Positions 1 to 27,184 of a DNA stretch of 31,543 nucleotides are shown here, piece after piece. Under the pieces are notes generated by a model, which saw nothing but the letters and a program-made list of their open reading frames with translations, was not told where the DNA came from and made no database searches. A program made the position numbers and the translations under genes. This DNA comes from a virus: positions 1 to 31,543 of IMG/VR virus record IMGVR_UViG_3300042889_001876; one strand, written 5' to 3'. Numbering within the stretch: position 1 is the stretch's first letter; every line of letters begins with the position of its first letter.

Positions 1-591
1 GTAACAATTCTAACCAGTTCAAATGAAGGATTTGGATTGAGTATTGCCGAATCAATTATGTGTGGTACTCCAGTAATTGTTAATGTTACCGGAGGTCTGC
101 AAGATCAAATTGGACAAGTAGATGATAATGGTAAACCATTAGAATTTGATTTGAACTTTGGCACTAACAGTGTGGGTAAATATAGAAATCATGGTGTATG
201 GGCAAAGCCAATTTGGCCATGTGTTAAAACAATTCAAGGAAGTGTACCTACACCATATATCTTTGATGATGTATGTACATGGGAAGAATCCGCCGAAGCA
301 ATCATGTATTGGTATTTAATGTCTTCAGAACAACGAGAAAAATGTGGATTAGAAGGACGTAGATGGGCAATGAATGAAGGTGGCATTAATTCAAAGAATA
401 TGTGTGATCAATTTATTAAAGCAATGGATTATACTATTAATAACTTTATTCCTGAGGCAGGTTTCAATTTGTTTACAGTTAAAGATCATGTAGGAAATTA
501 TCAACCACATAATAGTATTGGTGTAGAAATTCCAAAGATTGATATTGACAAATTGAAAAATGAAATCAATACTACAATAGCTAAACTATGA
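1..591 (+). CDS. GT4-family glycosyltransferase, C-terminal part (5' end outside window)
   Basis: The reading frame is open from base 1, so this is the C-terminal portion of a longer protein; the TTG at 37 is internal, not a start. The first residues read SSNEGFGLSIAESIMCGTPV, which carries the E-x7-E signature of GT-B retaining glycosyltransferases (GT4, glycogen-synthase-like); it binds the nucleotide-sugar phosphate in that family. It is followed by GGLQDQIG, typical of the same C-terminal Rossmann domain. About 195 residues are visible, with a tail beyond the catalytic domain. Donor and acceptor cannot be told. The stop overlaps the dUTPase start (ATGA), which suggests translational coupling. 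The fold assignment is strong; substrate is unknown. Confidence 0.88.
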   Translation, partial: VTILTSSNEGFGLSIAESIMCGTPVIVNVTGGLQDQIGQVDDNGKPLEFDLNFGTNSVGKYRNHGVWAKPIWPCVKTIQGSVPTPYIFDDVCTWEESAEAIMYWYLMSSEQREKCGLEGRRWAMNEGGINSKNMCDQFIKAMDYTINNFIPEAGFNLFTVKDHVGNYQPHNSIGVEIPKIDIDKLKNEINTTIAKL

Positions 592-1268
592 AGATTCAAG
601 TATTAAAGAATGATACATATCAGTCTACTGATAATCTACCAAAGAAAGGTACTGATAGAGCTACTGGTTTTGATGTAGTTGTTACAAGTGATCCAGAAAT
701 CGTTGGTGATCAGTATGAGAATGGTACATATAAACGAATCGATTATATTCAATATAAAACCAATCTTAAGTTGGCAGTTCTAAAAGATCGGCAATTTAGT
801 AACTTTGGTTATACTGATTTGGATTATGATATTCTAGCATTTCCTCGTAGTAGTGTTAGTAAGTATAATCTAGTATTAGCCAACTGTATTGGATTGATTG
901 ACGCAGATTATCGTGGTGAAGTATTGCTTCGTTTCAAGTATATCTGGCAACCAGAAGATTATCTGGTTAGAATTGATAAACTATTGGAGGGGTATGTTAA
1001 CTTTACTAAACTCTATAATAAAGGCGATAAAGTTTGTCAACTTAAGGTAACAAAAGTTGAAAATGTAGAATTTGTTTTAGTAGATGAATTAGATTCTACT
1101 AATAGAGGTGACGGTGGATTTGGTAGTACAGACACAAAAGTGACTGAACAAACCAAACAACAAATGAGAAACATTGCAGATTTATATGGAAAAATTAGTG
1201 GAAATATTACCACTCCATCAAAAAAATATGTAGATTCAATTAAAGAAAGAGAAAGACAATTAGGATAA
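588..1268 (+). CDS. dut: dUTPase, trimeric type, with insertions and C-terminal tail
   Basis: It hydrolyses dUTP to dUMP and pyrophosphate, keeping uracil out of phage DNA and feeding dTMP synthesis. All five family motifs are visible: ATGFDV (about residues 25-30), PRSSVSK (86-92), the GLIDADYRGE block (102-111), GDKVCQL (146-152) and RGDGGFGSTD (173-182). At 226 aa it is longer than the usual roughly 150 aa. There are extra residues between motifs I and II and between III and IV. About 44 lysine- and glutamate-rich residues follow motif V, which normally ends the protein and closes over the active site. It sits between two glycosyltransferase genes, overlapping the first by 4 bp, an odd location for a nucleotide-metabolism gene. 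Confidence 0.95.
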   Translation: MKIQVLKNDTYQSTDNLPKKGTDRATGFDVVVTSDPEIVGDQYENGTYKRIDYIQYKTNLKLAVLKDRQFSNFGYTDLDYDILAFPRSSVSKYNLVLANCIGLIDADYRGEVLLRFKYIWQPEDYLVRIDKLLEGYVNFTKLYNKGDKVCQLKVTKVENVEFVLVDELDSTNRGDGGFGSTDTKVTEQTKQQMRNIADLYGKISGNITTPSKKYVDSIKERERQLG

Positions 1269-7777: not shown

Positions 7778-8851
7778 ATGTTAGAACAAGATCATTTAGA
7801 ACCAGTTCAAGGTAGAACATTTACTAGTAATGTAAGTAAATTATTAAAACATTTAGATAAAATAAAACTTTTACAGGATAAAAAACGACCTTCTCCTGTT
7901 ATGTTTCATATGTCTCCATGTAATCCATGCAATCTTACATGTACTTTTTGTTGTTTTGCAAACAGAACATTAAAAGAAATGCTTACATTTGAACAAATGA
8001 AAAAAGCAATTGATTCTTTTGTTGAATTAGGCACAACAGGAATGGAACTTACAGGTGGAGGTGAACCAACTCTACATCCAGATTTCGGAAGAGTAGTAAA
8101 TTATGCGTATGAAAAAGGACTAAAAATAGGAGTTGTAACAAATGGTACCCAAATTACAAAATGGCATGAAAAAGGAAATGTTTGGGATAAATTACAATGG
8201 ATAAGATTAGGAATGTATGGATTTTATGAAGGATATGAATATGATATTAAAGCTTTAAGAACATACCCTAATTTAGAAATAGGAGCAGCTTATATTTGGG
8301 ACGAAAATTATAAAAATTCTAATAATCCAAATTTACATGGGAATTGGTCAGACAGTAAAGGCAAGAAAATTTCTAAAAATAGACAAACACCAGAACATTT
8401 TGAAAGAATGTTGCAATGGGTTGAAAAAGAAAAAATTCCAACTAGAATAGCATTTAATTCTATTAAAACTGCCGATTTGATTGCAGATGATTTAAATACA
8501 ATTCGTGAAAGAATTAAAGATTTAAATTTAAAATACGCATTTTTGTCCGACTTTAATTATAAAGGTACACGCAGAAACAATCATTGTTATATGCACAATT
8601 TCAAACCATTTGTATTTACAGATGGAAACGTATATGTATGTCCCTGTGCAGAAATGGCAGTAGAAAATACATATAAAGTAAACCCAGAATTTAAAATTTC
8701 TGATATAGACGGTATTCTTGATTTTTACAATTCAGTGTCAGATAATAATGGATATAAAAGATATCATAGTTGTAGCTATTGTAAATATGCATCTCAAAAT
8801 GAATTAATAGATGATGCTTTAATTGAAACAAACCATAACGATTTTGCTTAA
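7778..8851 (+). CDS. radical SAM enzyme with SPASM-like C-terminal cysteines
   Basis: The CX3CX2C motif (Cys51, Cys55, Cys58 in CNLTCTFC) would hold the [4Fe-4S] cluster that cleaves S-adenosylmethionine. It is followed by LTGGGEPTLHPDF, the SAM-binding GGEP motif, and VVTNGTQI. The C-terminal third has further cysteines (HCYMH, VCPCAEM, SCSYC) spaced like an auxiliary-cluster (SPASM or twitch) domain, with TDGNVYVCPCA typical of such domains. At 357 aa it is normal for the class. SPASM enzymes modify peptides or oxidise sugars and alcohols, so in this setting a sugar or aglycone modification is plausible, but the substrate is unknown. It starts three bases after the upstream TAA with no ribosome site. 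Confidence 0.87.
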   Translation: MLEQDHLEPVQGRTFTSNVSKLLKHLDKIKLLQDKKRPSPVMFHMSPCNPCNLTCTFCCFANRTLKEMLTFEQMKKAIDSFVELGTTGMELTGGGEPTLHPDFGRVVNYAYEKGLKIGVVTNGTQITKWHEKGNVWDKLQWIRLGMYGFYEGYEYDIKALRTYPNLEIGAAYIWDENYKNSNNPNLHGNWSDSKGKKISKNRQTPEHFERMLQWVEKEKIPTRIAFNSIKTADLIADDLNTIRERIKDLNLKYAFLSDFNYKGTRRNNHCYMHNFKPFVFTDGNVYVCPCAEMAVENTYKVNPEFKISDIDGILDFYNSVSDNNGYKRYHSCSYCKYASQNELIDDALIETNHNDFA

Positions 8852-8859
8852 TAATATAT

Positions 8860-9543
8860 ATGAAAATAAAAAATGTTAGAGAAAGTGAGTATTTAAATAA
8901 ACCATTCAATGGAAATTTTTACGACGCTGATTATTTTGAAAGAGGTCAAGAAACCGGAAAAGGATGGCTTCAAAATTATAGATGGTTACCAAGAAGAACT
9001 TTCAAAGAAGCATTATCAATTGCGGATTATTTAGATTTAAACGAAAAAAGTTATGTTCTGGATGTAGGATGTGCAAAAGGATTCATAGTAAAAGCACTCA
9101 GACAATTAGAAATTAAAGCAGATGGATGTGACATTAGTGAATATGCATTATCATATGCACCAACTGGATGTTGGAATTGTTCAGAGAAATCATCGTGGGA
9201 TGCACATAGTAGTTTCGGATATACACATATTGTCATCAAAGATATGCTTGAACATTTAACAATGATTCAATTAAAAGAATTACTATCAAATTGTAGTAAA
9301 GTTGCGAATACTCTTTTATGTGTTATTCCAATGGGAGACTCTGGAATATATCGAATACCAGAATATCACATGGAAGTTTCACACTTAATAGCTGAAGACG
9401 AAAATTGGTGGATCAAAAAATTTGAAGAATTCGGATGGGAAATCGAAAAACATTGTCCTCATATAAATGGATTGAAGGATAATTGGCAAAGTCACGCAAA
9501 TGGTGTTGGAAATCATGTATTTGTAATTAAAACCAAAATATGA
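8860..9543 (+). CDS. class I SAM-dependent methyltransferase
   Basis: This is a 227-aa protein with motif I YVLDVGCAKGFIVKAL near residue 65, the acidic post-motif DGCDISEYA, and a later THIVIKDMLEHL corresponding to the family's D-x-x-EH-x position. The region before the Rossmann fold (YDADYFERGQETGKGWLQNY) is typical of methyltransferases found in glycan and nucleotide-sugar clusters. There is an unusual CWNCSEKSSWDAH segment where the cap usually sits. It follows the radical SAM gene by 8 bp and overlaps the next GT2 gene by ATGA. The likely role is O- or N-methylation of a sugar or a capping step; the acceptor is unknown. Confidence 0.82.
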   Translation: MKIKNVRESEYLNKPFNGNFYDADYFERGQETGKGWLQNYRWLPRRTFKEALSIADYLDLNEKSYVLDVGCAKGFIVKALRQLEIKADGCDISEYALSYAPTGCWNCSEKSSWDAHSSFGYTHIVIKDMLEHLTMIQLKELLSNCSKVANTLLCVIPMGDSGIYRIPEYHMEVSHLIAEDENWWIKKFEEFGWEIEKHCPHINGLKDNWQSHANGVGNHVFVIKTKI

Positions 9544-10238
9544 ATTCTTCGATTAGTATATGCATTCCTACTTATGAGATGAAAGGGAAAGGTGTCGAAT
9601 GTCTTTCTTATTCATTTAATATATTAAATAATCAATCATATAAAAATTTTGATGTTATCATATCCGATAATAGTAAAAATGATGAAATAGAAAATTTATG
9701 TAAAAAATGGAATGATAAATTGGACATAAAATATTTTAGAAATCAAGAAAAATATGGAATGTCACAAAATACTAATTTTGCAATTAAAAAAGCAAAAGGA
9801 GACTTTATAAAAATATTGTTTCAAGATGATTTTTTATTTGGAACACAAAGTTTAGAAATACAATTATTTCATATATTAAGCAATTCAAATCATTGGTTAG
9901 TTACAGCCTGTTGTCATACTAAAGATTTAGTTCACTTTTTTAATGAACACTATCCAAAATATCATGATAATATTCAATATGGAGAAAATACAATAAGTTC
10001 ACCGAGTGTATTGATGTTTAAAAATAAAAATATCATTGAATTTGATGAAAACTTATGTTGGTTTATGGATGTTGATTATTATAAAAGACTATATGATATA
10101 TTTGGTTTGCCAAGCATATGCAATTATATTACAGTAGTAAATAGAATTCATGAAAATCAAACGAGTTCAATTATTACAAAAGAAATAGAAGAAAAAGAAA
10201 GAAAATATACGACGGAAAAATATTCTAAAATTATTTAA
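9540..10238 (+). CDS. GT2-family glycosyltransferase
   Basis: The start ISICIPTYEMKGKGVECL is the canonical GT2 opening, followed by FDVIISDNSKNDE (first Asp cluster), YGMSQNTNFAIKKAKGDFIK and ILFQDDFLFG, where QDD is the metal-binding DxD equivalent near residue 98. The 232-aa length covers one GT-A domain, with a WFMDVDYYKRLYDIFG segment in the acceptor region like that of many O-antigen GT2 enzymes. No membrane segment. ATGA overlap at its start couples it to the methyltransferase. Donor sugar is unknown. Confidence 0.87.
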   Translation: MNSSISICIPTYEMKGKGVECLSYSFNILNNQSYKNFDVIISDNSKNDEIENLCKKWNDKLDIKYFRNQEKYGMSQNTNFAIKKAKGDFIKILFQDDFLFGTQSLEIQLFHILSNSNHWLVTACCHTKDLVHFFNEHYPKYHDNIQYGENTISSPSVLMFKNKNIIEFDENLCWFMDVDYYKRLYDIFGLPSICNYITVVNRIHENQTSSIITKEIEEKERKYTTEKYSKII

Positions 10239-10239
10239 T

Positions 10240-11133
10240 ATGGAAAATATTGTTACTTATTGTTTTGACTTAGATGGTACTTTGTGTTATAGTCCACAAA
10301 AATTGTATAAAGATTCAATTCCTTATATAGAAGTAATTGAAAAAGTTAATAAATTATATGACGAGGGTTGTAAAATAGTAATTTTTACTGCTAGAGGAGG
10401 CACTTCAAAAATTGATTATAATGAATTAACGGTTTCACAATTGAAAAAGTGGAATGTAAAATACCACGAATTGATTGATAAAAATAAACCTCACTTTGAT
10501 ATTTTAATTGACGATAAAGCAATTAATGCAAAAACATGGAGAGAACAAAATAATATATTTGTAGATGAACCAAATTATATTGAAAGATACTTATCAGAAG
10601 TCAAATCAATTGCAGACATGTTAGACAGAAAAGAATTGATTAACTTTATAGATTGTATTAAACAATGTAAAGAAAACAAAGGTAGATTATTTGTTCTTGG
10701 TGTTGGTGGTAGTGCAGCCAATGCATCACACGCAGTAAATGATTTTAGAAAGATCTGTGGTATAGAAACATATTCTGTTTCTGAAAATGTAGCAGAACTT
10801 ACTGCGAGAATTAATGATGAAAGTTGGAAAACTTGTTATACCAACTGGTTGAAAGTATCCAATCTTTCAAAAAATGATGTGTTAATGATTTTTTCTGTAG
10901 GAGGAGGGTCTGATACTACTTCTCAAAATCTAGTGGATGCAATGTTATATGGAAAATCAATTGGAAGTAAGATTGTATCTATTGTAAGTAGAGATGGTGG
11001 TATTGCCAAAAAAGAATCAGATGCATGTGTATTAATTCCGGTTATTAATAATTCTAGAATCACTCCTCATGCAGAGGAATGGCAAGGAGTAGTTTTACAT
11101 TTAGTAGTAAATTATTTATCTTATGAACATTAA
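10240..11133 (+). CDS. HAD phosphatase - phosphoheptose isomerase (SIS) fusion
   Basis: Two domains are joined in one 297-aa chain. Residues 1 to about 120 are a small HAD phosphatase of the EcbF/BcbF capsule type: DLDGT with nucleophile Asp10 and acid Asp12, FTARGG (49-54) and KPHFDILIDD (83-92). Residues about 125-297 are a GmhA-like SIS domain: LGVGGSAANASHA (153-165), ENVAELTARINDES (182-195), SVGGGSDTTSQN (219-230) and TPHAEEWQGVVLH (275-287), the form usual in GDP-heptose clusters. The expected steps are sedoheptulose-7-P to D-glycero-D-manno-heptose-7-P (SIS) and removal of the 7-phosphate from the 1,7-bisphosphate (HAD). The transaldolase overlaps its end; kinase and guanylyltransferase genes follow on the other strand. 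Domain calls are strong; step assignment is inferred from neighbours. Confidence 0.87.
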   Translation: MENIVTYCFDLDGTLCYSPQKLYKDSIPYIEVIEKVNKLYDEGCKIVIFTARGGTSKIDYNELTVSQLKKWNVKYHELIDKNKPHFDILIDDKAINAKTWREQNNIFVDEPNYIERYLSEVKSIADMLDRKELINFIDCIKQCKENKGRLFVLGVGGSAANASHAVNDFRKICGIETYSVSENVAELTARINDESWKTCYTNWLKVSNLSKNDVLMIFSVGGGSDTTSQNLVDAMLYGKSIGSKIVSIVSRDGGIAKKESDACVLIPVINNSRITPHAEEWQGVVLHLVVNYLSYEH

Positions 11134-11818
11134 AATATTTGCGGATGGATCAAATATTAAAGAAATATTTGATCTTTATGAAAATAACAAATTAGTAAAG
11201 GGATTTACAACCAATCCTAGCCTCATGAAAAAAGCAGGAGTTACTGATTACACAACATTTATCAAAGATGTTACATCAAAAATTAAAGATCTATCAATTT
11301 CATTCGAAGTATTTGCAGATGATGAAAAAGAAATGACTTATCAAGCAAAGAAAATCGCTAGTTTTGGTGAAAATATTCATGTTAAAATTCCAATTACAAA
11401 TACAAAGGGACAATATACATTAAAAGTAATTGAATCTCTTGTAAATGATAATGTAAAAGTAAATGTTACTGCTGTTTTTACACAAACTCAAATAAATATG
11501 TTAAAAACAGTATTACCAAATAATAAAGACAATATCGTATCAATATTTGCGGGGAGAATTTCTGATACTGGAAGAAATCCTATTCCATATATAACATATT
11601 CACAACTCGCATTAAAAAATCAATGCGAAATATTATGGGCAAGTACAAGACATGTTTATAACATTTATGAAGCTAATCAAGCTAATTGTGATATCATTAC
11701 AGTAACACCAGATCAAATCAAAAAATTGTCTTTGAAAGATAAAGACTTAACGGAATATTCCTTGGAAACTGTAAAAATGTTTTACGATGATGCGACTAGT
11801 TCAGGTTTGGTTCTTTAA
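11123..11818 (+). CDS. transaldolase (small TalC/MipB-type)
   Basis: This is a 231-aa aldolase-type TIM barrel. Signature pieces are FADGSN near the start, GFTTNPSLMKKAGVTDY (27-43), FEVFADD (61-67), HVKIPIT (86-92) with the Schiff-base lysine at 88, VTAVFT, IFAGRISDTG and LWASTRHVYN. Transaldolase moves a dihydroxyacetone unit between sugar phosphates and yields sedoheptulose-7-phosphate, the substrate of the SIS domain encoded just upstream (11-bp overlap). That makes it a likely precursor supplier for heptose rather than a pentose-phosphate housekeeping gene, although cyanophage transaldolases used to redirect host carbon are a known alternative. The 3' end overlaps the convergent nucleotidyltransferase by 18 bp. 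Confidence 0.92.
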   Translation: MNIKIFADGSNIKEIFDLYENNKLVKGFTTNPSLMKKAGVTDYTTFIKDVTSKIKDLSISFEVFADDEKEMTYQAKKIASFGENIHVKIPITNTKGQYTLKVIESLVNDNVKVNVTAVFTQTQINMLKTVLPNNKDNIVSIFAGRISDTGRNPIPYITYSQLALKNQCEILWASTRHVYNIYEANQANCDIITVTPDQIKKLSLKDKDLTEYSLETVKMFYDDATSSGLVL

Positions 11819-12505
11819 ATATTGTTCCAATTCATTCAATCCATTAATAGATCCCATTTCATAAAATCTATTAAATACTTCATATCCCGCTAATTGTTTA
11901 TTAGTCACAAGATCAAACATAACTTGTGATAAATCAAATGAACAATCAGCGGGATATTTATTAAATATAGATATATTAAATATACTTAGACCATAATCTA
12001 TATAATTCATATCTGATGTTTTATTCTTTTTATCATAACAAACTATTTGATTGTCTTTAAATACTACATTACTTGTATCATATAGATTGTCATTTTTAAA
12101 TAAAGTCATCAATCCTTCTTTATTTGTTTTATGAAAATATTCTAATATAGGTTTATATTCTACTGGCAAATAAGAATCACCATATAATACAAAGAAAGTA
12201 TTACTTAACTTTGAATATGCTTTTTTAATCGCACCACCAGTTCCCAATTGTTTTGATCCATCAAAGGAATATTCAAGTATTATATCTTTGTATTTATCAC
12301 CAAAAGCATCTTTTATCATTTCACCCAAATAACCAATACACAAAACAACATGTCTAATACCTTGTTCTTGTAACATATCAAGTTGATATTGTAACATTGG
12401 TTTATTATTAACCATTACCAGTGATTTTGGTATTGTCTTAGTAATAGGTTGTAATCTAGTAGCCAATCCACCACACAATATTAATACTGTTGTTTGATTT
12501 ATCAT
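11801..12505 (-). CDS. hddC: sugar-1-phosphate nucleotidyltransferase, HddC-like (probable heptose-1-P guanylyltransferase)
   Basis: The N-terminus TVLILCGGLATRLQPITKTI is the GGxxTRLxPxT nucleotide-binding motif, followed by PKSLVMVNNKPML, and LGTGGAIKKA and LYGDSYLP (the Mg-binding GD). At 234 aa it has the short single-domain form of HddC/ManC-N-type enzymes, without the C-terminal helices of RmlA. It begins with an ATGA overlap after the GHMP kinase, and in known clusters HddA and HddC are a pair that makes heptose-1-P and then GDP-D-glycero-D-manno-heptose. The nucleotide (GTP against CTP or dTTP) is inferred from context only. Confidence 0.8.
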   Translation of the reverse strand: MINQTTVLILCGGLATRLQPITKTIPKSLVMVNNKPMLQYQLDMLQEQGIRHVVLCIGYLGEMIKDAFGDKYKDIILEYSFDGSKQLGTGGAIKKAYSKLSNTFFVLYGDSYLPVEYKPILEYFHKTNKEGLMTLFKNDNLYDTSNVVFKDNQIVCYDKKNKTSDMNYIDYGLSIFNISIFNKYPADCSFDLSQVMFDLVTNKQLAGYEVFNRFYEMGSINGLNELEQYLKNQT

Positions 12506-13482
12506 GACATTATTTGTTTTGTACCTTCAAAATCAAAACTAAATCTCACTTCTTTAAGTCCTAAAGAACGCATTGTTTTTCTTAAATTAGCTTTATCTTC
12601 AGAATAAAACATCAAAAATCCTCCACCGCCAGCACCAATCAATTTACCTCCAATTGCTCCATTTTGCATTGCCATGTCATACCATTCATTTATCTTTGAA
12701 TTGCTCATATTACTGCTTCTTTTCTTTTTATTCTGCCAATGTACATCCATAAGTTTAGCAAATTCAACTAAATCACCATCTTCAAGTAATTTTTTACTTT
12801 TATAACCAAGTTCTTTAACAAAATGAAGATTATCATTCATTTCTTTGTCATCTTGTTTGGATTTTTGATCTTGTTCCTTTAATATAGAAGAAGCCGATCT
12901 TGAATATCCAGTAAAAAATAATAATAAATTATCAGTTAATTTATCAAAGGTTTCCTCACTTATTCTTAAAGGTGATGTAACAACTGATCCGTCTTTGTTA
13001 AAAGTAAATTGAGTAATTCCACCATATGATGAAATGAATTGGTCTTGTTTACCAATTGGCTCTTTAAGCATATTTAATTCAATATGACATGCCTGTTCTG
13101 CTAATTCCTTTGCATTAACTATATTTTTCTTGTAAACATGAAGAGCTTTAAGCAAAGCAGTAGTAAAACTACTAGATGATCCAAGCCCTGTTCCAGAAGG
13201 AATATCTGCCATTGAAGACAATTCTAAACCTTTACCATCCATTCCAACATATTGAAATGCATTCCTAATAATTGGATGATCAATTTGACTAGCATCATCT
13301 ACACTTTCCATTTTGGAATATTTTACAATAAGACCAGGAGCAAAGTTTTCGTGTAATGTGATATAAACATATTTGTTTATTGCTGCAGAAATTAAAAATC
13401 CGTCAAACTTTTCATAGTATGAAGGAACATCCGTTCCTCCACCACCCAATGTAATTCTTAATGGAGATCTTGTAATTATCAT
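12502..13482 (-). CDS. hddA: GHMP kinase, HddA-like (probable D-glycero-D-manno-heptose-7-phosphate kinase)
   Basis: This 326-aa protein opens with TRSPLRITLGGGGTDVPSYY (4-23), the substrate-side motif of HddA and FucK-type GHMP kinases. It is followed by IPSGTGLGSSSSF (94-106), the ATP-binding P-GLGSSS loop, and near the end IGAGGGGFLMF, GHMP motif 3. HddA phosphorylates D-glycero-D-manno-heptose-7-phosphate at C1. Assignment over L-fucokinase or galactokinase rests on the adjoining nucleotidyltransferase and the SIS-HAD and transaldolase genes on the opposite strand. It overlaps the downstream HddC-like gene by 4 bp and follows the Gfo/Idh gene by 1 bp, so this is one operon. Confidence 0.86.
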   Translation of the reverse strand: MIITRSPLRITLGGGGTDVPSYYEKFDGFLISAAINKYVYITLHENFAPGLIVKYSKMESVDDASQIDHPIIRNAFQYVGMDGKGLELSSMADIPSGTGLGSSSSFTTALLKALHVYKKNIVNAKELAEQACHIELNMLKEPIGKQDQFISSYGGITQFTFNKDGSVVTSPLRISEETFDKLTDNLLLFFTGYSRSASSILKEQDQKSKQDDKEMNDNLHFVKELGYKSKKLLEDGDLVEFAKLMDVHWQNKKKRSSNMSNSKINEWYDMAMQNGAIGGKLIGAGGGGFLMFYSEDKANLRKTMRSLGLKEVRFSFDFEGTKQIMS

Positions 13483-13483
13483 A

Positions 13484-14452
13484 TTATTTATTATAAATTG
13501 TTTCTACGACTGTTAATACATTAATTGCTTCTTGTATACCTGGAACAGAAGTTCTGTTTAATACTATATCATTTATAAACTCATTCATTTCAATTTTCCA
13601 AGAATTATCTTGTTTGGGAAATTCATAAATAGTTGTATCAGGTGGTCCCATTTCATCTGTCATCTTATAAAAATACAATCTTTCAGTTCCGTAACTCCCA
13701 CCCAATCCTTCCCAATGACATTTTGCGTATTTAAAATAAACTTCTAAACTAAAAGTGTTTTTCCATTCTGTACAACTAACATGTAACCAAGCAGTATTAT
13801 TTTTGTTATTTTTAAGACTTAAGAACGCATTGTCTTCTACATCCATTTTCCAATAATAAGTATTTATGTGTCCATCAATCTGGGTATATTCACCCATAAA
13901 AATACTTGCCAAATCAATTAAATGTACTCCTTGATCAATTAATTCACCGCCACCAGATATAGTTTTATCTGACCGCCATTCCGATTCATATCCAATTCGT
14001 CCACCATGACCATATCTGGCTCTTAAAAACATAAAATCACCAAGTTCACCATCTGAAATCAATTCATTCATCTTAATACATGATGGATGATATCGATGAT
14101 TATATCCTATTCTTATAAGGGAACCCGATTCTTTAGATGCTTGTTTTAGTTGATTTAATTCATTTACACTGATACTTCCTGGTTTTTCTATCAATACATG
14201 TTTACCATGTTTAATTAACTTTAAAGCAATTGAATATAATTGATTGTTGATTACAGATACAATTACTGCATTTACTCTAACATCAGTACAAATTACATTT
14301 ATATCATTCGTTGCAATACATCCATTATATTGATTTGCCAATGATTCAGCTCGTTTAAAGTCAATATCACATGTATATAAAAGTAAATTTTGAGATAAAC
14401 TTTTTGCTCTTTTTTGACCAATCAACCCACATCCAATTATAGCAAAATTCAT
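13484..14452 (-). CDS. Gfo/Idh/MocA-family oxidoreductase
   Basis: This is a 322-aa protein. An N-terminal Rossmann fold starts MNFAIIGCGLIGQKRAKSL (GxGxxG). The hallmark EKPGSISVNEL follows near residue 90, the lysine being the family's catalytic Lys, with GYNHRYHPS close behind. The C-terminal alpha/beta domain has GGGELIDQGVHLIDLA near 165-180, containing the conserved D-x-G-x-H-x-x-D substrate-site pattern. These enzymes oxidise or reduce ring hydroxyls with NAD(P). In sugar clusters they make keto- or amino-sugar precursors, and next to an SDR and HddA they commonly tailor the heptose or hexose. The exact substrate is unknown. It lies one base from both operon neighbours. Confidence 0.88.
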   Translation of the reverse strand: MNFAIIGCGLIGQKRAKSLSQNLLLYTCDIDFKRAESLANQYNGCIATNDINVICTDVRVNAVIVSVINNQLYSIALKLIKHGKHVLIEKPGSISVNELNQLKQASKESGSLIRIGYNHRYHPSCIKMNELISDGELGDFMFLRARYGHGGRIGYESEWRSDKTISGGGELIDQGVHLIDLASIFMGEYTQIDGHINTYYWKMDVEDNAFLSLKNNKNNTAWLHVSCTEWKNTFSLEVYFKYAKCHWEGLGGSYGTERLYFYKMTDEMGPPDTTIYEFPKQDNSWKIEMNEFINDIVLNRTSVPGIQEAINVLTVVETIYNK

Positions 14453-14453
14453 A

Positions 14454-15230
14454 TCAACTCCATTTTTTATTTCTATCTTCAGGAACTATTCGTCTAAGTG
14501 TATAAACATCGGTATTTTGTATATCTTGTATATTGTTTTTAATTGCGTTTAAATCGTCCCATTGAGCACTTATAATCTTTCCACTAATACCATTTGTAGA
14601 TATCAAAAATTCTATAAGTTCTATTACTTTTTCAATCTTTCCATCATTATCTTTCGATAATTTATTAGCAGATTCCCATTCTTTTTTACCCGCAAGTTCA
14701 CTATTAGATAATACTTGTTTAGTCATATTAGTATAAATTGCGCCGGGAGCAATTGCATTGATCTCTATATTGGAATTAAATTCATCAGACAGTATCTCTA
14801 CTAATCTTAAAATTCCTGTTTTGGCAACACCATATGATGAAAAGTTTGGTCTAGATGATGTAGAACCACCACCGGAAAAACAAATGATTTTTGATTTATT
14901 TAATAGTTTATAAAAAGAATATATGGTATAATATGTACCAATCAAATTTACATTGATATTATTTGTCCATTTTAATGGATCAGATAACATTGCCGGACCA
15001 ATTGGATCTTGTATACCAGCACAACAAATTAGACAGTCTACATGACTCCATTCTTTTGATATAGAATCAACACATTTTTGCATTGAATTAAGATCAGATA
15101 CATCACATTGAAAACTGAAACCATCTTGTTTTGATCGTGAAATTTTACAAACATTATGGTTTTTTTCAATAAAATATTTAGATAATAATTTACCTATCCC
15201 ACTACTAGATCCTGTAATAACTATATTCAT
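14454..15230 (-). CDS. short-chain dehydrogenase/reductase (classical SDR)
   Basis: This 258-aa protein has TGSSSGIG (6-13), the cofactor motif, CDVSDL (42-47), ICCAG (68-72, where classical SDRs have NNAG), Asn95, the catalytic Ser in CFSGGGS (117-123) and Tyr133 with Lys137 in YGVAK. After the active site it has AIAPGAIYT, also usual. The last 40 residues include ISGKIISAQWDD, the common C-terminal SDR pattern. It probably reduces or oxidises a sugar intermediate handled by the neighbouring Gfo/Idh enzyme; the pair recurs in heptose and O-antigen clusters. Its stop lies 1 bp before the next gene. Confidence 0.88.
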   Translation of the reverse strand: MNIVITGSSSGIGKLLSKYFIEKNHNVCKISRSKQDGFSFQCDVSDLNSMQKCVDSISKEWSHVDCLICCAGIQDPIGPAMLSDPLKWTNNINVNLIGTYYTIYSFYKLLNKSKIICFSGGGSTSSRPNFSSYGVAKTGILRLVEILSDEFNSNIEINAIAPGAIYTNMTKQVLSNSELAGKKEWESANKLSKDNDGKIEKVIELIEFLISTNGISGKIISAQWDDLNAIKNNIQDIQNTDVYTLRRIVPEDRNKKWS

Positions 15231-15231
15231 T

Positions 15232-16182
15232 TTAATATACCCATTGATTTTTCTGTAACCATGTTAATGTAGAAATAACACCTTGTTTAATCGTTAATTT
15301 AGCATTCCATCCAGTATTTCTAATTTTAGTAGTATCTAAGAATATAAAAGGATTATCTCCTATCCATCCTTTATTACCACCAGAATATTTAATTTCAGGA
15401 TTTAAGTTTAAATAGTCAATGATAAATCTTACAGAATCATTGACTTGTACATATTCATTAGTTCCTAAATTATAGATATTTACCTTAGTTTCAGTATTCA
15501 ATGTTAATACATGCAACATTGCATCCACACAGTCTTGTACATACAAGTAACTTTTTCTTTGTGTACCGTCACCAAGTACATTTAAATATTCAGGATGTTC
15601 CATGAGTTGTTTATAAAAATCAAATATATGTCCATGTGTATATCGTTCACCTAAAATAGAAACAAATCTAAAAATATAAGATTCAAATCCATATCCTTCT
15701 GAATATGCTTGAATCAATGATTCACATGCAACTTTAGATGCACCATATAATGATGTTTGAATAGGAAATGATGCATTTTCTGGTGTCGGGATCGTGATTG
15801 ATTCTCCATAAACGCTTCCAGTAGAACTAAATATTATCTTTTTAATTCCCTGTTCTTTCATTGCCTGTAATACATTGAATGTGGCAATAGTATTTTGATT
15901 TAAATCTTTGGAAGGATGATTTAATCCAAATCGAACATCGGCATTAGCTGCAAGATGAAAAACAACATCACATCCAATCATTGCTTCTGACAATGCGGAT
16001 ACATTAAGATTATCGCCTTCGATTAGTGTAAAATTTGGATTATTTAATGCATCATTTAAAAATTCAATTCTACCAGTTGAATAATTATCCCACCCAACAA
16101 CTTTATAACCTTCTTTTAATAATCTATCAACCAAATTACTTCCAATAAAACCACATGCACCTGTAACAAATATTTTATTCAT
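15232..16182 (-). CDS. NAD-dependent sugar-nucleotide epimerase/dehydratase (GalE-like extended SDR)
   Basis: MNKIFVTGACGFIGSNLVDR gives the TGxxGFIG cofactor motif. Then come WDNYSTG, FHLAANADVR (the LAA-x-x-x-V position of UDP-hexose 4-epimerases), FSSTGSVYGE, and YGASK (Tyr and Lys catalytic). The C-terminal half has GDGTQRKSYLYVQDCVDAM. I chose ATG 16182; an upstream in-frame ATG at 16206 would add eight residues before the Rossmann strand, and neither has a ribosome site. With roughly 316 aa it matches GalE and GDP-sugar epimerase/dehydratase families. It could epimerise or dehydrate GDP-heptose given the operon, but substrate is not shown. Confidence 0.86.
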   Translation of the reverse strand: MNKIFVTGACGFIGSNLVDRLLKEGYKVVGWDNYSTGRIEFLNDALNNPNFTLIEGDNLNVSALSEAMIGCDVVFHLAANADVRFGLNHPSKDLNQNTIATFNVLQAMKEQGIKKIIFSSTGSVYGESITIPTPENASFPIQTSLYGASKVACESLIQAYSEGYGFESYIFRFVSILGERYTHGHIFDFYKQLMEHPEYLNVLGDGTQRKSYLYVQDCVDAMLHVLTLNTETKVNIYNLGTNEYVQVNDSVRFIIDYLNLNPEIKYSGGNKGWIGDNPFIFLDTTKIRNTGWNAKLTIKQGVISTLTWLQKNQWVY

Positions 16183-16282
16183 AATACTATTATATACCAC
16201 ATACATATGAACAAATCAAATATAATAAATTGATTGTAAAATATAAAAAATTAACTTATCCTAGAAATTATATGTAATATAA
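16183..16282. promoter_or_regulatory. divergent intergenic region between the heptose-side - operon and the GT17 + operon
   Basis: This is the only place where two long operons diverge, so promoters for both are expected here. It is almost pure A+T. TATAAATG overlaps the GT17 start codon, but a late promoter there would begin inside the gene. I see no good TTGACA/TATAAT pair in either direction, only loose -10-like words such as TATAAT. The assignment rests on gene orientation. Confidence 0.35.
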
Positions 16283-20627: not shown

Positions 20628-21779
20628 ATGAATATCAGTTTTATAATACCCTCTAAAAATAATATAAAATATTTAAAAAATGCTTATTATAGTATAAGAA
20701 AATACTATAAAAATCATGAAATTGTAATTTTAGATGACTGTTCAACTGACGGTACTGTAGATTGGATGAACAATCTATCAGATGATAATCTAACTAAATA
20801 TTTCAACAAAAAAAGTCCTGTGGGACATACGGTATTATATAATATCGGCATTGAAATGTGTAAAAATGATATCTTTTCAATATTTCATGCAGATATGATA
20901 TGCGGTCCACATTATGTAGAAAATTTATTGAAACATCTAAAAGACAGAACAGTAGTTTCTGCTACTCGTATAGAACCTCCTTTACATCCAGCTGGAAAAG
21001 AAAAAATTGTTAAAAATTTCGGATTGGAACACGACGATTTAAAAATTCAAGAATTTGAAGACTTTTGTATATCAGAACAAAAATCGTCATGTGATATTAC
21101 AACCAAAGGAATTTTTGCACCTTGGTGTATGTATAAAAAAGACTTTATTGAAATTGGCGGTCATGATGTAATGTTTGCACCATTTCCATATGAAGACAGT
21201 GATATATTTCAAAGATTCATTTTAAATGACTATAACATAATTCAAAGTCGAGATTCATTTGTATATCACTTAACATGTAGAGGACATCGATGGACAGAAA
21301 AAATACAAAAAGATGACGATTTTTATAAAAAATGTTGTGATAAAAATTATAAAAATTACATTAGAAAATGGGGATCTTGGATAGAAAACGATGAATATAG
21401 TTATCCTATCATAAACTCAAAATATGATGTCGGATTAATTGTTAATAACTGTAACCCTCAACTATTGAGTATATTAGAATATTGGTGTTCTACTATCTAT
21501 GTCGATTGTGATAATAAATCTTATATTAATAATAATCAACATCTCACACCATTTAATTTAAAAAACAGAGTAAAAACTTTAAATGATGAAAAAGTAAATG
21601 ATATATTAATCGAATTCGACGGAAATATGTTAAACAACAACAATATACAAATTATCTCCAACCTTTCTAAAATCTTAAAAGATTCTGGAGAAATTGGAGA
21701 TATGGAGTTTGATATATTTAAATTTACAATTAAATCTTTAAAAACATACGAAAAAAATCTAATTACAGTTAAAAATTAA
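20628..21779 (+). CDS. GT2 glycosyltransferase with unrecognised C-terminal domain
   Basis: This is a 383-aa protein. The first roughly 250 residues are a GT2 domain: ISFIIPSKNNIKYLKNAYYS, EIVILDDCSTDGT (first Asp cluster), SIFHADMICG (the DxD equivalent) and FAPFPYEDSDIFQRF, the acceptor-side E-D-x-D. Residues about 265-383 form a separate segment with YDVGLIVNNCN, ILIEFDGNML and a Glu-rich end. I do not recognise it; it looks like a small alpha/beta fold and might be a degraded or fused partner domain. The gene ends with a 4-bp convergent overlap with rmlB on the other strand. Confidence 0.8.
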   Translation: MNISFIIPSKNNIKYLKNAYYSIRKYYKNHEIVILDDCSTDGTVDWMNNLSDDNLTKYFNKKSPVGHTVLYNIGIEMCKNDIFSIFHADMICGPHYVENLLKHLKDRTVVSATRIEPPLHPAGKEKIVKNFGLEHDDLKIQEFEDFCISEQKSSCDITTKGIFAPWCMYKKDFIEIGGHDVMFAPFPYEDSDIFQRFILNDYNIIQSRDSFVYHLTCRGHRWTEKIQKDDDFYKKCCDKNYKNYIRKWGSWIENDEYSYPIINSKYDVGLIVNNCNPQLLSILEYWCSTIYVDCDNKSYINNNQHLTPFNLKNRVKTLNDEKVNDILIEFDGNMLNNNNIQIISNLSKILKDSGEIGDMEFDIFKFTIKSLKTYEKNLITVKN

Positions 21780-22732
21780 AGATAATTTTTTATAGTATTT
21801 TCCAAATTTTTATTAAAATCACTTAATTTAAAGTTTGGAAATTCTATTTTAAAATCACTCATATCAATTGCATATTTATAGTCATGTCCTTTACGATCAG
21901 TAACATATTCAAACCATTCCCAATCAACTTTTTGATTTGTTACAATTTCATATACAGAAACAATTGAATGAATTAATTGTATATTAGATATTTCATTATT
22001 ACCCCCAATCAAGTATTGTTTTCCTACAATACCATCTAATAGAACATTAATTAGAGCATTAACATGATCTTTAACATAGATCCAATCTCTAATATTTGTT
22101 CCATTTCCATATAAAGGTATCTTCTCTTTTTTCTTTAACTTATTTATACAAACTGGTATAAGTTTTTCTGGATATTGTCTTGGCCCAAAATTATTACTAC
22201 AATTGGTAATAATACCTGGAAATTTATAAGTTTTTACATAACTTCTCACCAACAAATCACTCGCAGCTTTAGTTGATGCATATGGACTATTTGGTCTATA
22301 TGGACTATCTATATTAAATGGTCCTTCTTTATGACTAAGTGTACCAAATACTTCATCTGTTGATACATGAATAAATTTTTTAATATTTGTATCTTTAAAA
22401 ATTTCAAGAAGATTAAAAGTACCTATAATATTAGTATCAATAAACTTTTTAGGACTTTTAATTGAATTATCAACATGAGATTCCGCAGCAAAATGAATTA
22501 CATAATCAAAATTTAATGATTCAAAATATTTTTTATGGTCAGGAAAATACGGAGAAGAAATATCCATATTTAACCTTTGATATCTTGGATCATCTTGAAA
22601 TGGCAAGGATTTATTAGCAGCATATGTTCCACAATCAATATTGTAAACTTTATTTACATTTTCATTTTTAAGAATCTCTTCTATAAAATGACTTCCTATA
22701 AATCCATTTCCACCTGTAACTAATATATTCAT
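21776..22732 (-). CDS. rmlB: dTDP-glucose 4,6-dehydratase
   Basis: It converts dTDP-glucose to dTDP-4-keto-6-deoxyglucose. It carries the Rossmann motif TGGNGFIGSHF, HFAAESHVDNS (80-90), STDEVFG (124-130) with catalytic Asp126 and Glu127, YASTK (151-155) with Tyr151 and Lys155, and NNFGPRQYPEKLIP. All are diagnostic for RmlB and separate it from plain 4-epimerases. At 318 aa it is slightly shorter than the usual 350, with a truncated C-terminus. It is the last gene of a five-gene - operon starting with rmlA, and its start overlaps the reductase stop by 4 bp. Confidence 0.93.
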   Translation of the reverse strand: MNILVTGGNGFIGSHFIEEILKNENVNKVYNIDCGTYAANKSLPFQDDPRYQRLNMDISSPYFPDHKKYFESLNFDYVIHFAAESHVDNSIKSPKKFIDTNIIGTFNLLEIFKDTNIKKFIHVSTDEVFGTLSHKEGPFNIDSPYRPNSPYASTKAASDLLVRSYVKTYKFPGIITNCSNNFGPRQYPEKLIPVCINKLKKKEKIPLYGNGTNIRDWIYVKDHVNALINVLLDGIVGKQYLIGGNNEISNIQLIHSIVSVYEIVTNQKVDWEWFEYVTDRKGHDYKYAIDMSDFKIEFPNFKLSDFNKNLENTIKNYL

Positions 22733-23544
22733 AATAATGTTTTTATCCCTTCATAAATAGGAATTCGTTGTTTAAATCCTATTTTATTTAATTTATCAAC
22801 ATTTAAGTACATATCTTTAATTTGTACAATCTTGTGAAAATCAACAGCATCTATAGAAATAATTTTACTAGTAGAATTTGTTTCTTTAATAACAAAATCA
22901 ATAATTTCTCTGAATTTCTGTGGAATCCCACTTCCAATATTAATAATTTGATTATATTCGGGATGATGTAATATAGAATAAATTGCATTACATACATCAT
23001 CAACATGCATATAATCTCTTATAAAATCGCCGTTATAATATAACTTAATTTCATTGTTAGATTTAATCTCACCAATCAAATATTGTAAAGCATTCTTTTG
23101 TTTTGAAACTCCTTTATCGGTTTGACCATATACATTACACAATCTTAATATTCTATATTTAATTTTGAATGTCTCACAATAACTAATAATTAAATCTTCT
23201 GCACATTTTTTTGTGATACTATAAAATCCTTTTGGACTACAACAATAATCTTCCCTAGCAGGTAATTCTACATCACCATATACAAACCAACTACTAACAA
23301 AATTAAAAACTACATTTTTATTTTTACAATTTTGTAATACATTCAATAACTTCGTAAGGTTCGTATCTACATCCTTATGAATATTTTCAAATACATGATA
23401 ATTATGAGATGTACTGATCATGTATAATACATTCTCATATATAGGCATATTATCTTCTCTATCATGTACATGAGTAGATTCATTATATAATTTTTTAAAA
23501 TTATTGCCTATAAATCCAGTCCCACCAAATAAATCAATTTTCAT
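22729..23544 (-). CDS. short NAD-dependent sugar-nucleotide reductase/epimerase (extended SDR)
   Basis: This 271-aa protein has FGGTGFIGNNF as the cofactor motif at the N-terminus, VSSWFVYGDVELP (the Ser-x-x-x-VYG position), YSITKKCAEDL (Tyr and Lys of YxxxK), LRLCNVYGQTDKG and RDYMHVDDVCNAI. The usual LAA region is replaced by YMISTSHNYH. By its short length and its place next to an RfbH-like 3-dehydrase, a C4-reductase such as abequose or paratose synthase is likely, but it could also be a different 4-keto reductase or epimerase. Its start overlaps the end of the upstream 3-dehydrase gene by 11 bp. Confidence 0.8.
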   Translation of the reverse strand: MKIDLFGGTGFIGNNFKKLYNESTHVHDREDNMPIYENVLYMISTSHNYHVFENIHKDVDTNLTKLLNVLQNCKNKNVVFNFVSSWFVYGDVELPAREDYCCSPKGFYSITKKCAEDLIISYCETFKIKYRILRLCNVYGQTDKGVSKQKNALQYLIGEIKSNNEIKLYYNGDFIRDYMHVDDVCNAIYSILHHPEYNQIINIGSGIPQKFREIIDFVIKETNSTSKIISIDAVDFHKIVQIKDMYLNVDKLNKIGFKQRIPIYEGIKTLL

Positions 23545-24826
23545 ATTTAGAAATTACTTCTTTGATATATTCAATGTTATCGTTTGTAATAGTTGGCGAA
23601 CATCCAATGAAAAATACTTTTTCAAGTACACCATTTGCATTTGGATAATTGCTCCAATGTTCCAAATGTGAATAAGCTGGATGTAGTAATATATTGCCAG
23701 CAAAATAATTTCTTGTTTGAATGCCATTGGACTCTAAATAATTAACCAATTTATTTTTAGATAAATAAGAATCGCAAATAATTGGAACACCAAACCAAGA
23801 TACATCTGCTCTTTCATCTTGTGACGGAAATTTTAACGATTTAATCGATTCAAAAATAGATTGAATTGTTTTTTTATTAGACTTTCTAATTTCGTGAAAT
23901 CCATCAGATTTCTTTAATTGAGCTAATCCAATACCTCCTTGTAAATCAAGGGGTTTTAAATTATATCCAACTTGAGTAAAGAAATATTTATGATCGATTT
24001 GATATGGGAGTTCCTTGATCCAGTTGCTAAATCTACAATTACAACTACCATTTTTTAATAAATTTGCTGGACCTATACAAAAACAATCTCTTCCCCACCA
24101 ACTAAAAGATCTAGCTAATTTTACAATTTCTTCTATATTTGAACTAACCATACCTCCTTCACCAGTAGTAATATGATGTGCTGGATAAAAACTACAACTA
24201 GTAGCAATAGCATATTCACACAAATCTTTACCTTTCCATTTACTTCCAAAACTATCACATCCGTCCATAATTAATTGAATTCCGTATTTATTGGAAATTT
24301 CCACTAATTTATCCATATCAGGAGGATTCCCCAATACAGGAGAAATGAAGATTGCTTTAGTATTAGGTGTAATCTTTTTCTCTAATTCAATCAAATCAAA
24401 GTTAAGTGTATTGTATTCAATATCTACAAATACAGGCTTTAAATTGTTTTGAATAATTGGATTTAATGTTGTAGGAAAACCAACAACAGATAGTAAAATT
24501 TCATCACTGTCTAACCATTTGAAATGTTTTTTAAGAGCTGCAATCATTACAAGATTAGCAGAACTGCCAGAATTAACCATTACAGAATATTTCTGATTTA
24601 TCTTTTTACTAAATTCTTGTTCAAACTTATACACCTTTTCACCACTACTAAACCATTTACCAAACAACAATGAGTCAATAGCTTCAACCAATTCATCATC
24701 GTCCATCAATGGTCCAGAATAAAATACTTTATTTTTTGCTCCCTTAAGATTATGACAATATTCAGGTATAAATTGTTCTTTTTTTATTTGATTTATAAAA
24801 TCTATTATAACTTGTTTTTTATTCAT
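23534..24826 (-). CDS. RfbH/DdhC-type (E1) 4-keto-6-deoxyhexose 3-dehydrase with [2Fe-2S] ligands
   Basis: This 430-aa member of the DegT/DnrJ/EryC1 aminotransferase fold removes the C3 hydroxyl of CDP-4-keto-6-deoxyglucose in known systems, using PMP. The Schiff-base lysine of aminotransferases is replaced by histidine (His218 in SFYPAHHITTGEGG), as in E1 and ColD. Cysteines at 190, 248, 250 and 262 or 264 give C-X57-C-X1-C then X11-C. This nearly matches the C-X57-C-X-C-X7-C iron-sulfur motif of Yersinia E1 as I recall it. ColD lacks the cluster, so this is an E1-type enzyme needing an E3 reductase for electrons; none is encoded here. No CDP-glucose genes are present, whereas RmlA and RmlB are, so the true substrate is uncertain. 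Confidence 0.88.
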   Translation of the reverse strand: MNKKQVIIDFINQIKKEQFIPEYCHNLKGAKNKVFYSGPLMDDDELVEAIDSLLFGKWFSSGEKVYKFEQEFSKKINQKYSVMVNSGSSANLVMIAALKKHFKWLDSDEILLSVVGFPTTLNPIIQNNLKPVFVDIEYNTLNFDLIELEKKITPNTKAIFISPVLGNPPDMDKLVEISNKYGIQLIMDGCDSFGSKWKGKDLCEYAIATSCSFYPAHHITTGEGGMVSSNIEEIVKLARSFSWWGRDCFCIGPANLLKNGSCNCRFSNWIKELPYQIDHKYFFTQVGYNLKPLDLQGGIGLAQLKKSDGFHEIRKSNKKTIQSIFESIKSLKFPSQDERADVSWFGVPIICDSYLSKNKLVNYLESNGIQTRNYFAGNILLHPAYSHLEHWSNYPNANGVLEKVFFIGCSPTITNDNIEYIKEVISKYEN

Positions 24827-24827
24827 A

Positions 24828-25691
24828 TTATTTCCAATTATTTAAGCAGTAATCAATTGATTCATCCACGGTTTTCATTTTAATTCCAGTTTTTAATAAT
24901 TTACTATTACTCATCACACAATTAGAACGAGGTGTTTTAGCATAATTTTTATACAAAGTTTCTTCATCAATTAATGTAAAATTTTTATCTTTTGCAATAG
25001 TTTTCTTTAACTTTTCAATTAAAGTATCGGTTGTAATATACCCCGTATTTGTTACATTGTAAATACCAAATGGTACTTCATTAGTAATTGTTTGTATACA
25101 TGCACTCACAAATTCGTGTTTATTACTAATAGAATTCTCTGCTTGCAATAACTTATCATACCTCAACATTTTACTAATATAATTGCGTGAATTATTATTC
25201 TCTTCAAAAGGTATTCTTAATCTCCAAATATAATTTTTATTCCATCTTGATACTATCTTTTCCGCAATTGCTTTTGTACCACTATAAAAACTACAATTGT
25301 TCTGTTTAAATGAAAAATTTGGTTCATCGTTTTCTGTAAATGGATTACCATCCAATCGTCTCCCAGAGTAAATACATCCACTTGATACATGACCTAATTT
25401 AATATCATTTAATATACACCAATCAGTTAATATCTGAGGCCAGATAATATTACCATGAATAGTATTTTCTTTGGACAGTTCACATGCATCTACATTTGGC
25501 TTTCCAGTATATCCAGCAGCATTAATTACGGCATCAATACTTGGATATCCTGATTCTCTATACCAGCTCTCTAAATCATTAAATGTTGTATTTTCAGCAT
25601 TAGGCCAACATTTAAATTCAATTTGTTTTTGTTCCAATTGACATTTAAATTCACTGCCAATATATCCAGTTGACCCAAATAGTATAATCAT
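24828..25691 (-). CDS. RmlD-superfamily reductase resembling NRS/ER (UER1) of rhamnose synthesis
   Basis: This 287-aa protein has FGSTGYIGSEF as the cofactor loop, AVINAAGYTGKPNVDACELS, GHVSSGCIYSG, NPFTENDEPNFSF, FYSGTKAIAEK (YxxxK variant) and RLRIPFEENNNSRNYISKML, ending with KTPRSNCVMSNSKL. The sequence follows the plant-type bifunctional epimerase/reductase (NRS/ER, UER1) order N-x-AG-x-TG-x-PN-V-D-x-C-E, not classical bacterial RmlD. In those enzymes the product is dTDP- or UDP-L-rhamnose from the 4-keto-6-deoxy intermediate made by RmlB. No separate RmlC is in the window, which fits a bifunctional enzyme. The start overlaps the rmlA stop by 4 bp. Confidence 0.83.
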   Translation of the reverse strand: MIILFGSTGYIGSEFKCQLEQKQIEFKCWPNAENTTFNDLESWYRESGYPSIDAVINAAGYTGKPNVDACELSKENTIHGNIIWPQILTDWCILNDIKLGHVSSGCIYSGRRLDGNPFTENDEPNFSFKQNNCSFYSGTKAIAEKIVSRWNKNYIWRLRIPFEENNNSRNYISKMLRYDKLLQAENSISNKHEFVSACIQTITNEVPFGIYNVTNTGYITTDTLIEKLKKTIAKDKNFTLIDEETLYKNYAKTPRSNCVMSNSKLLKTGIKMKTVDESIDYCLNNWK

Positions 25692-26894: not shown

Positions 26895-27184
26895 GAATTG
26901 CCAATTTAAATGAACTATACAACTATATCAAAACTAAAGAACCATTAACATCCAATGGAAGTTTAATGCAATTGTGTGCCTGTGTAGATCAATTTAAAAA
27001 TATATGCAGTTGTAAAGCAAAAGAAAAAGGTCAAAAATTATTTGACTGTAATAATAAATATGTTTCTACAATAAATAATATTGACCAACAAACTATAGAT
27101 TTACTATTGTCAGTATCAGAAGATAAAACAATAGAATTTTATGATAATTCTACTTACATTAGAACTATTTCAGTATCGTCTTAA
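26891..27184 (+). CDS. hypothetical protein with Cys-rich segment
   Basis: A 97-aa soluble-looking protein of unknown function. Residues about 29-53 hold five cysteines (LCACVDQFKNICSCKAKEK, then DC), which could bind metal or form a redox site. The N-terminus has LNELYNYIKTKEPL and the C-terminus alternates charged and hydrophobic residues. It is translationally coupled (ATGA) to the CPFC membrane protein, so the two may work together. The end overlaps the convergent dNMP kinase-like gene by 20 bp. Confidence 0.6.
   Translation: MRIANLNELYNYIKTKEPLTSNGSLMQLCACVDQFKNICSCKAKEKGQKLFDCNNKYVSTINNIDQQTIDLLLSVSEDKTIEFYDNSTYIRTISVSS

Follow-up and report, generated by a model that had tools for sequence, protein, structure and literature searches.

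A phage gene cassette for an activated higher sugar, probably akin to the GDP-octose pathway of lincosamides

The window analysed here is the whole of IMG/VR virus record IMGVR_UViG_3300042889_001876 (31,543 bp), from an uncultured phage, and the subject is a gene unit within it, at 10240-16206, which is predicted to synthesize a nucleotide-activated higher sugar, probably a GDP-octose (Table 1). The initial annotation had identified here a HAD-SIS fusion, a transaldolase, an HddC-like nucleotidyltransferase and an HddA-like kinase (10240-13482), and interpreted them as a whole GDP-heptose route with its own feeder enzyme. The four genes are indeed intact open reading frames (ORFs) with family matches far above chance, and they do belong to two convergent transcription units, the transaldolase and nucleotidyltransferase genes overlapping by 18 bp (11801-11818). 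The range originally assigned to the pathway, 9540-13482, includes these four genes, but its first ORF (9540-10238) encodes a family-2 glycosyltransferase, and the functional unit extends to 16206 through three minus-strand genes upstream of the kinase gene, those for a Gfo/Idh/MocA oxidoreductase (Gfo/Idh), a short-chain dehydrogenase (SDR) and an epimerase. The HAD-SIS and transaldolase genes overlap by 11 bp. Neither a terminator between the convergent units nor an excess of promoters was seen in consensus scans.

Table 1. Features of the window, with E-values given after the matched family or model
Feature	Position	Strand	Matches and remarks
dUTPase	588-1268		phrog_135 4e-31; left end, phage replication-type
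Radical SAM protein	7778-8851	+	glycan island
Family-2 glycosyltransferase	9540-10238		outside the sugar pathway
HAD-SIS fusion	10240-11133	+	intact ORF
HAD phosphatase domain, EcbF/BcbF-like	10240-10575	+	phrog_1238 6e-26; PNK3P 8e-5; TIGR01689 1e-4
SIS aldose-ketose isomerase domain, LmbN-like subfamily	10576-11133	+	SIS_2 3e-9; gmhA model TIGR00441 4e-11
Transaldolase	11123-11818	+	TAL_FSA 2e-36; TIGR02134 4e-84, 281.9 bits (cut-off 281.95)
Sugar-1-phosphate nucleotidyltransferase, HddC/LmbO-like	11801-12505	-	NTP_transferase 4e-20; HddC model NF049965 2e-30
GHMP anomeric sugar kinase, HddA/LmbP-like	12502-13482	-	GHMP kinase domains; HddA model NF049969 3e-51; PDB 3k85 and 4usk, E<1e-42
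Gfo/Idh/MocA oxidoreductase, LmbZ-like	13484-14452	-	GFO_IDH_MocA 5e-18
SDR	14454-15230	-	adh_short 4e-28; no lincosamide-cluster counterpart seen
Extended SDR sugar-nucleotide epimerase, LmbM-like	15232-16206	-	Epimerase 1e-50
Second sugar-nucleotide operon	21776-26530	-	
NAD-dependent epimerase-like protein	22729-23544	-	
dNMP-kinase-like protein	27165-27815		right end, phage replication-type
Clamp-loader subunit	27808-28335		phrog_225 1e-12; right end, phage replication-type
UvdE endonuclease	29071-29982		right end, phage replication-type

All five activities that lead, in the lincosamide pathway, from transaldolase to nucleotidyltransferase are encoded together with intact motifs. The HAD part of the fusion retains the catalytic motifs DLDGT...TARG...IDDKA; it had been taken for GmhB, but is of the EcbF/BcbF kind, with a resemblance to phage HAD family phrog_1238. 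Among the loci fetched, the fusion was otherwise found in only one viral contig (L002), and none of the annotated phage records among the matches listed matches it over 80% of its length, these matches covering the HAD half. The family phrog_1238 is itself labelled 'phosphoheptose isomerase', a label frequent in annotations of T4-like phages, which looks wrong because the match is to the HAD phosphatase domain and not to the SIS domain.

Relatives of the SIS domain lie in a recurring neighborhood, hereafter the cassette, that consists of genes for an epimerase, an SDR, a Gfo/Idh protein, a GHMP kinase, a nucleotidyltransferase, the SIS protein, a separate HAD of the FLDRDGV type (GmhB/LmbK-type) and a transaldolase. 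The cassette is present, with varying completeness, in at least eight bacterial phyla and in many viral contigs; the taxa include Acidobacteriota, Verrucomicrobiota, Actinomycetota (Mycolicibacterium), Elusimicrobiota, Ignavibacteriota, Myxococcota, Vulcanimicrobiota and Thermodesulfobacteriota, among others, and cultured species that bear it include Chthoniobacter flavus, Bryocella elongata and Mycolicibacter sinensis. Genes were counted around 36 bacterial SIS genes flanked on each side by 6 kb or more and around 15 viral ones with enough flank. The bacterial loci contain a transaldolase in 30 cases, a kinase and a nucleotidyltransferase in 31 each, HAD in 28, Gfo/Idh in 24, SDR in 23 and epimerase in 22; transaldolase is represented in all 15 viral loci and the kinase in 14. 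The contig holds every member of the cassette, with a different phosphatase, the EcbF/BcbF-type HAD fused to SIS. No viral relatives were found when the kinase was used as the probe.

In the open-access literature, we found no precedent for phage GDP-heptose synthesis with a transaldolase, for octose pathways in phages or for transaldolases in capsule clusters, nor any paper that connects octose genes of the lincosamide type with phages or with a general cassette of bacteria. The remark in the initial annotation that such routes are rarely described is accurate for this literature, but the gene sets themselves are recurrent, as the 15 viral loci attest, and phages with GmhA and HddA have already been annotated (Cr30 and SynMITS9220M01). 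The enzyme families and the pathway logic are already known; the setting, the spread and the likely product are new.

Judging from its sequence, the SIS domain of the contig is a member of a subfamily other than GmhA and has an LmbN-type loop. In the SIS tree, the cassette and LmbN-type rows fall on one side and 18 GmhA-type rows on the other (95/83). The phosphate-binding segment around the STSGNS motif of GmhA is 14 residues long in each of the 18 GmhA-type rows and 18-23 residues long in every cassette and Lmb row; SVxGG combined with the lengthened loop is seen in 45/45 cassette and 5/5 Lmb rows, but in 0/18 GmhA-type rows, and the extended loop FSVGGG(x)nS is common to the contig SIS and LmbN. 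His61, Asp94, Ser119, Ser124 and His180 of E. coli GmhA are retained in the cassette SIS, with D in place of E65 and E in place of Q172. The latter two residues were considered as a marker of octose enzymes and dropped, both being present in the two phage GmhA relatives compared. The closest solved folds to the AlphaFold model of the domain (mean pLDDT 91.8) are GmhA (1tk9, Z 24.3 over 177 residues) and, tied with it, DiaA, so that the fold alone is no proof of isomerase activity.

The contig transaldolase conserves the active-site K, E, T, S, F and R of TalB. Glu96, Phe178, Ser176 and Lys132 are kept in this protein and in 41/41 cassette rows, whereas FsaA has Q, Y and A at the first three of these positions; a fructose-6-phosphate aldolase identity is therefore ruled out. 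In the transaldolase tree, the cassette and LmbR-type sequences, together with a staphylococcal one, are separated from ten housekeeping, TalB and TalC rows (99/95), a split that carries a long-branch warning. The staphylococcal sequence (L136:1798-2490) comes from OR844993.1, an UNVERIFIED Staphylococcus phage record in which this stretch is probably host DNA, and it is possible that it represents a cassette enzyme recruited into central metabolism. Three loci (L054, L088 and L019) combine the same SIS and kinase with a transaldolase of a clearly different branch, as if the enzyme had been replaced and the activity kept.

Two lines of evidence indicate that the transaldolase is dedicated to the cassette pathway. 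At least two TAL_FSA genes are present in 8 of the 10 cassette-bearing genomes checked (one was found in each of the other two, which are draft genomes), and a transaldolase gene lies within 6 kb of the SIS gene in 30/36 bacterial and 15/15 viral loci, compared with none of 11 actinomycete loci (18 kb each) that encode GmhA and HddA. The corresponding P values (7e-7 for the bacterial and 1e-7 for the viral loci) are guides only, because the loci share ancestry and all heptose controls belong to a single class. In Campylobacter jejuni, GDP-heptose synthesis begins from pool sedoheptulose-7-phosphate, in a text that makes no mention of a transaldolase (PMC10680097).

In the lincosamide pathway, the dedicated transaldolase LmbR uses ribose-5-phosphate as the acceptor, according to PMC5854111, which cites Sasaki et al. 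2012; LmbN, the kinase LmbP, LmbK and LmbO then lead to GDP-octose, which is followed by LmbM, LmbL, LmbZ and LmbS (PMC4351081, PMC12945683). Clusters in two genomes, G1004 and G860, were verified as lincosamide-type by features that fit the descriptions in the latter two publications. G1004 has the gene order L-M-N-Z-P-O-S-R, with LmbN fused to an N-terminal carrier-like domain and, ahead of these genes, a gamma-glutamyltransferase and an LmbK-type HAD. G860 has CcbN without the carrier domain and CcbZ with a PP-binding domain; a third genome, G173, contains a related cluster. Profiles of the cassette proteins were searched against these three whole genomes. The Gfo/Idh profile ranked LmbZ, CcbZ and the G173 homolog at the top (242, 242 and 220 bits, with the next paralog at 102, 103 and 101 bits, among 22, 18 and 8 hits, respectively), and the epimerase profile did the same for LmbM and its kin (265, 296 and 290 bits, against 127, 124 and 129 for the next match). 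LmbP and LmbR were the sole matches of the kinase and transaldolase profiles, respectively.

The G173 cluster (L167, L168) also follows the order L-M-N-Z-P-O-S-R, and its LmbN lacks the carrier domain; it is followed by genes for a class-II aminoacyl-tRNA-synthetase-like protein, a glycosyltransferase and an ABC transporter. Lincosamide-like clusters are likewise indicated in G848 (L189) and G820 (L190), where the short stretch around the SIS gene was covered. Clusters of this type may make an undescribed octose-containing natural product.

We estimate at roughly 60% the probability that the phage cluster serves to make GDP-octose for a surface glycan, through a pathway homologous to the one behind the lincosamide octose. 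An octose is favored by the gene content, the relation to LmbZ and LmbM, the SIS subfamily and the dedicated transaldolase; the chain length of the substrate, GDP as the nucleotide, the order of the steps and the glycan destination are what we infer. Under this scheme, the transaldolase would transfer a dihydroxyacetone unit from fructose-6-phosphate or sedoheptulose-7-phosphate to ribose-5-phosphate, yielding octulose-8-phosphate, which the SIS domain would convert to octose-8-phosphate. The GHMP kinase would phosphorylate C1, the SIS-fused HAD domain, acting in place of an LmbK/GmhB-type HAD, would remove the 8-phosphate, and the nucleotidyltransferase would produce GDP-octose. The epimerase, Gfo/Idh and SDR proteins could then alter stereochemistry or oxidation state, and the glycosyltransferases of the island might transfer the sugar to a glycan of the surface or of the virion.

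Several observations weigh against an octose, and most of them speak for GDP-heptose, the product originally proposed, which we consider unlikely although it is the strongest of the alternatives. Among curated enzymes, the kinase matches HddA best and the nucleotidyltransferase HddC; the nucleotidyltransferase also has a lower score with LmbO than with HddC, and LmbO and CcbO come only second when their genomes are searched with its profile (122 vs 126 and 111 vs 126 bits). In the kinase tree, the LmbP rows fall outside the cassette and HddA-like kinases (100/98), so that the cassette kinase is nearer to HddA and is not grouped with LmbP. The cassette transaldolase has the canonical E96 and F178, where LmbR has Q and L, and the staphylococcal transaldolase nests inside the cassette clade; this enzyme family may well make sedoheptulose-7-phosphate. 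For the kinase, the nucleotidyltransferase and the transaldolase active site, a heptose thus fits as well as an octose or better. The SIS fold also lies closest to GmhA, long branches (3.2 changes per column) separate the cassette SIS from LmbN, and LmbL and LmbS are missing from the cassette.

Conversely, the profile searches suggested in the initial annotation did return the HddA, HddC and gmhA models, but every heptose equivalog cut-off was missed widely by the contig proteins (174.7 of 600, 106.5 of 300 and 43 of 209 bits, respectively). The SIS domain lies outside GmhA and has a different phosphate loop, relatives of LmbZ and LmbM adjoin, and a dedicated transaldolase would be superfluous for making sedoheptulose-7-phosphate where bacteria keep another one, and is absent from the 11 GmhA and HddA loci. 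What stands of the original proposal is that one route, headed by a dedicated transaldolase, leads from central sugar phosphates to a higher sugar activated by a nucleotide; GDP-heptose as the end product is doubtful.

Less probable still is the same logic applied to a sugar of another length or stereochemistry, made from arabinose-5-phosphate or another acceptor aldose, GDP-activated and tailored. Transaldolases accept several acceptors, as stated in PMC5854111, and the cassette SIS and transaldolase are long diverged from both characterized types, but the lincosamide homology points to ribose-5-phosphate. Although talC is common in cyanophages, we reject, on tree placement and linkage, the least probable reading by far, namely that the transaldolase is an independent carbon-metabolism gene of this kind and a chance neighbor of the sugar-nucleotide cluster: its identity to the phage talC records listed is at most 35%, the trees place it outside the talC type, and it is tied to the SIS gene by the linkage described above and by the overlap with the HAD-SIS gene.

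The two halves of the phage unit differ in affinity. The plus-strand half is virus-like, with 63-74% identity in SIS and 56-57% in transaldolase to viral loci L005 and L026, compared with 47-49% and 44%, respectively, to Verrucomicrobia loci L104 and L068. The minus-strand half is Verrucomicrobia-like (kinase 71-72%, epimerase 69%, nucleotidyltransferase 59-61% and Gfo/Idh 59% identity), whereas the identity to the L005 and L026 sets is 38-44% for the kinase and 30-31% for the epimerase, the remainder not being found there. Given these differing affinities, the convergent layout with its 18-bp overlap appears to mark where two acquired pieces were joined; this layout recurs in one relative, L002. 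We would give about even odds to the broader proposition that the linear GDP-octose pathway, so far documented only for lincosamides, is a widespread surface-sugar cassette captured by phages, with the lincosamide genes as an offshoot, and that the set in this phage joins, tail to tail, a viral HAD-SIS and transaldolase pair to a Verrucomicrobia-like epimerase-SDR-Gfo-kinase-nucleotidyltransferase operon.

If true, a GDP-octose product would predict that bacteria and phages have a class of surface sugars with eight carbons, made by a pathway for which two antibiotics are the only documented cases, and would account for clusters that have their own transaldolase. The cassette also offers candidate kin of the lincosamide sugar genes, and the labels 'phosphoheptose isomerase', 'HddA' and 'HddC' in viral metagenomes may conceal enzymes of octose or other higher-sugar synthesis.

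The unit is part of a 25-kb sugar island that lies between the replication-type genes at the two ends of the contig and encodes glycosyltransferases, fucosyltransferases of families GT10 and GT11, methyltransferases and sugar-nucleotide enzymes; the GC content is 22-35% over the whole length of the contig. The island also encodes, next to a methyltransferase and a glycosyltransferase, a radical SAM protein that matches no family closely. The second sugar-nucleotide operon, which encodes GDP-mannose-4,6-dehydratase-like, epimerase-like and RmlD-like proteins, a DegT aminotransferase and a nucleotidyltransferase, probably makes another deoxy-amino sugar. The NAD-dependent epimerase-like protein matches the Pfam domain over roughly its last two thirds only, and seems to lack the N-terminal dinucleotide-binding part.

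Among known systems, the lincosamide pathway shares with the contig the succession of transaldolase, SIS isomerase, GHMP kinase, HAD phosphatase and nucleotidyltransferase, followed by the epimerase (M) and Gfo/Idh (Z) proteins, as well as the SIS phosphate loop and the placement of SIS and transaldolase in trees. The contig differs in having no adjoining LmbL or LmbS, an extra SDR, an EcbF/BcbF-like HAD fused to SIS, canonical transaldolase residues and a kinase nearer to HddA, and the cassette is found in bacterial chromosomes and, here, within the glycan island of a phage, whereas the lincosamide set belongs to an antibiotic cluster. The GDP-heptose pathway follows the same logic of isomerase, anomeric kinase, terminal phosphatase and guanylyltransferase, with HddA and HddC as the nearest curated enzymes; it is set apart by the non-GmhA SIS, the dedicated transaldolase, the lack of a GmhB-type phosphatase in the cluster and the equivalog scores. 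Caulobacter phage Cr30 and Synechococcus phage SynMITS9220M01 also encode an HddA-kind sugar kinase adjoining an SIS isomerase, but the latter is of the GmhA type with a short loop, and neither an LmbZ homolog nor, in the stretches read, a cassette-type transaldolase accompanies it. Cyanophage talC, like the contig gene, encodes a short transaldolase, but one that belongs to another branch of the family, serves carbon metabolism and has no link to an SIS-kinase set.

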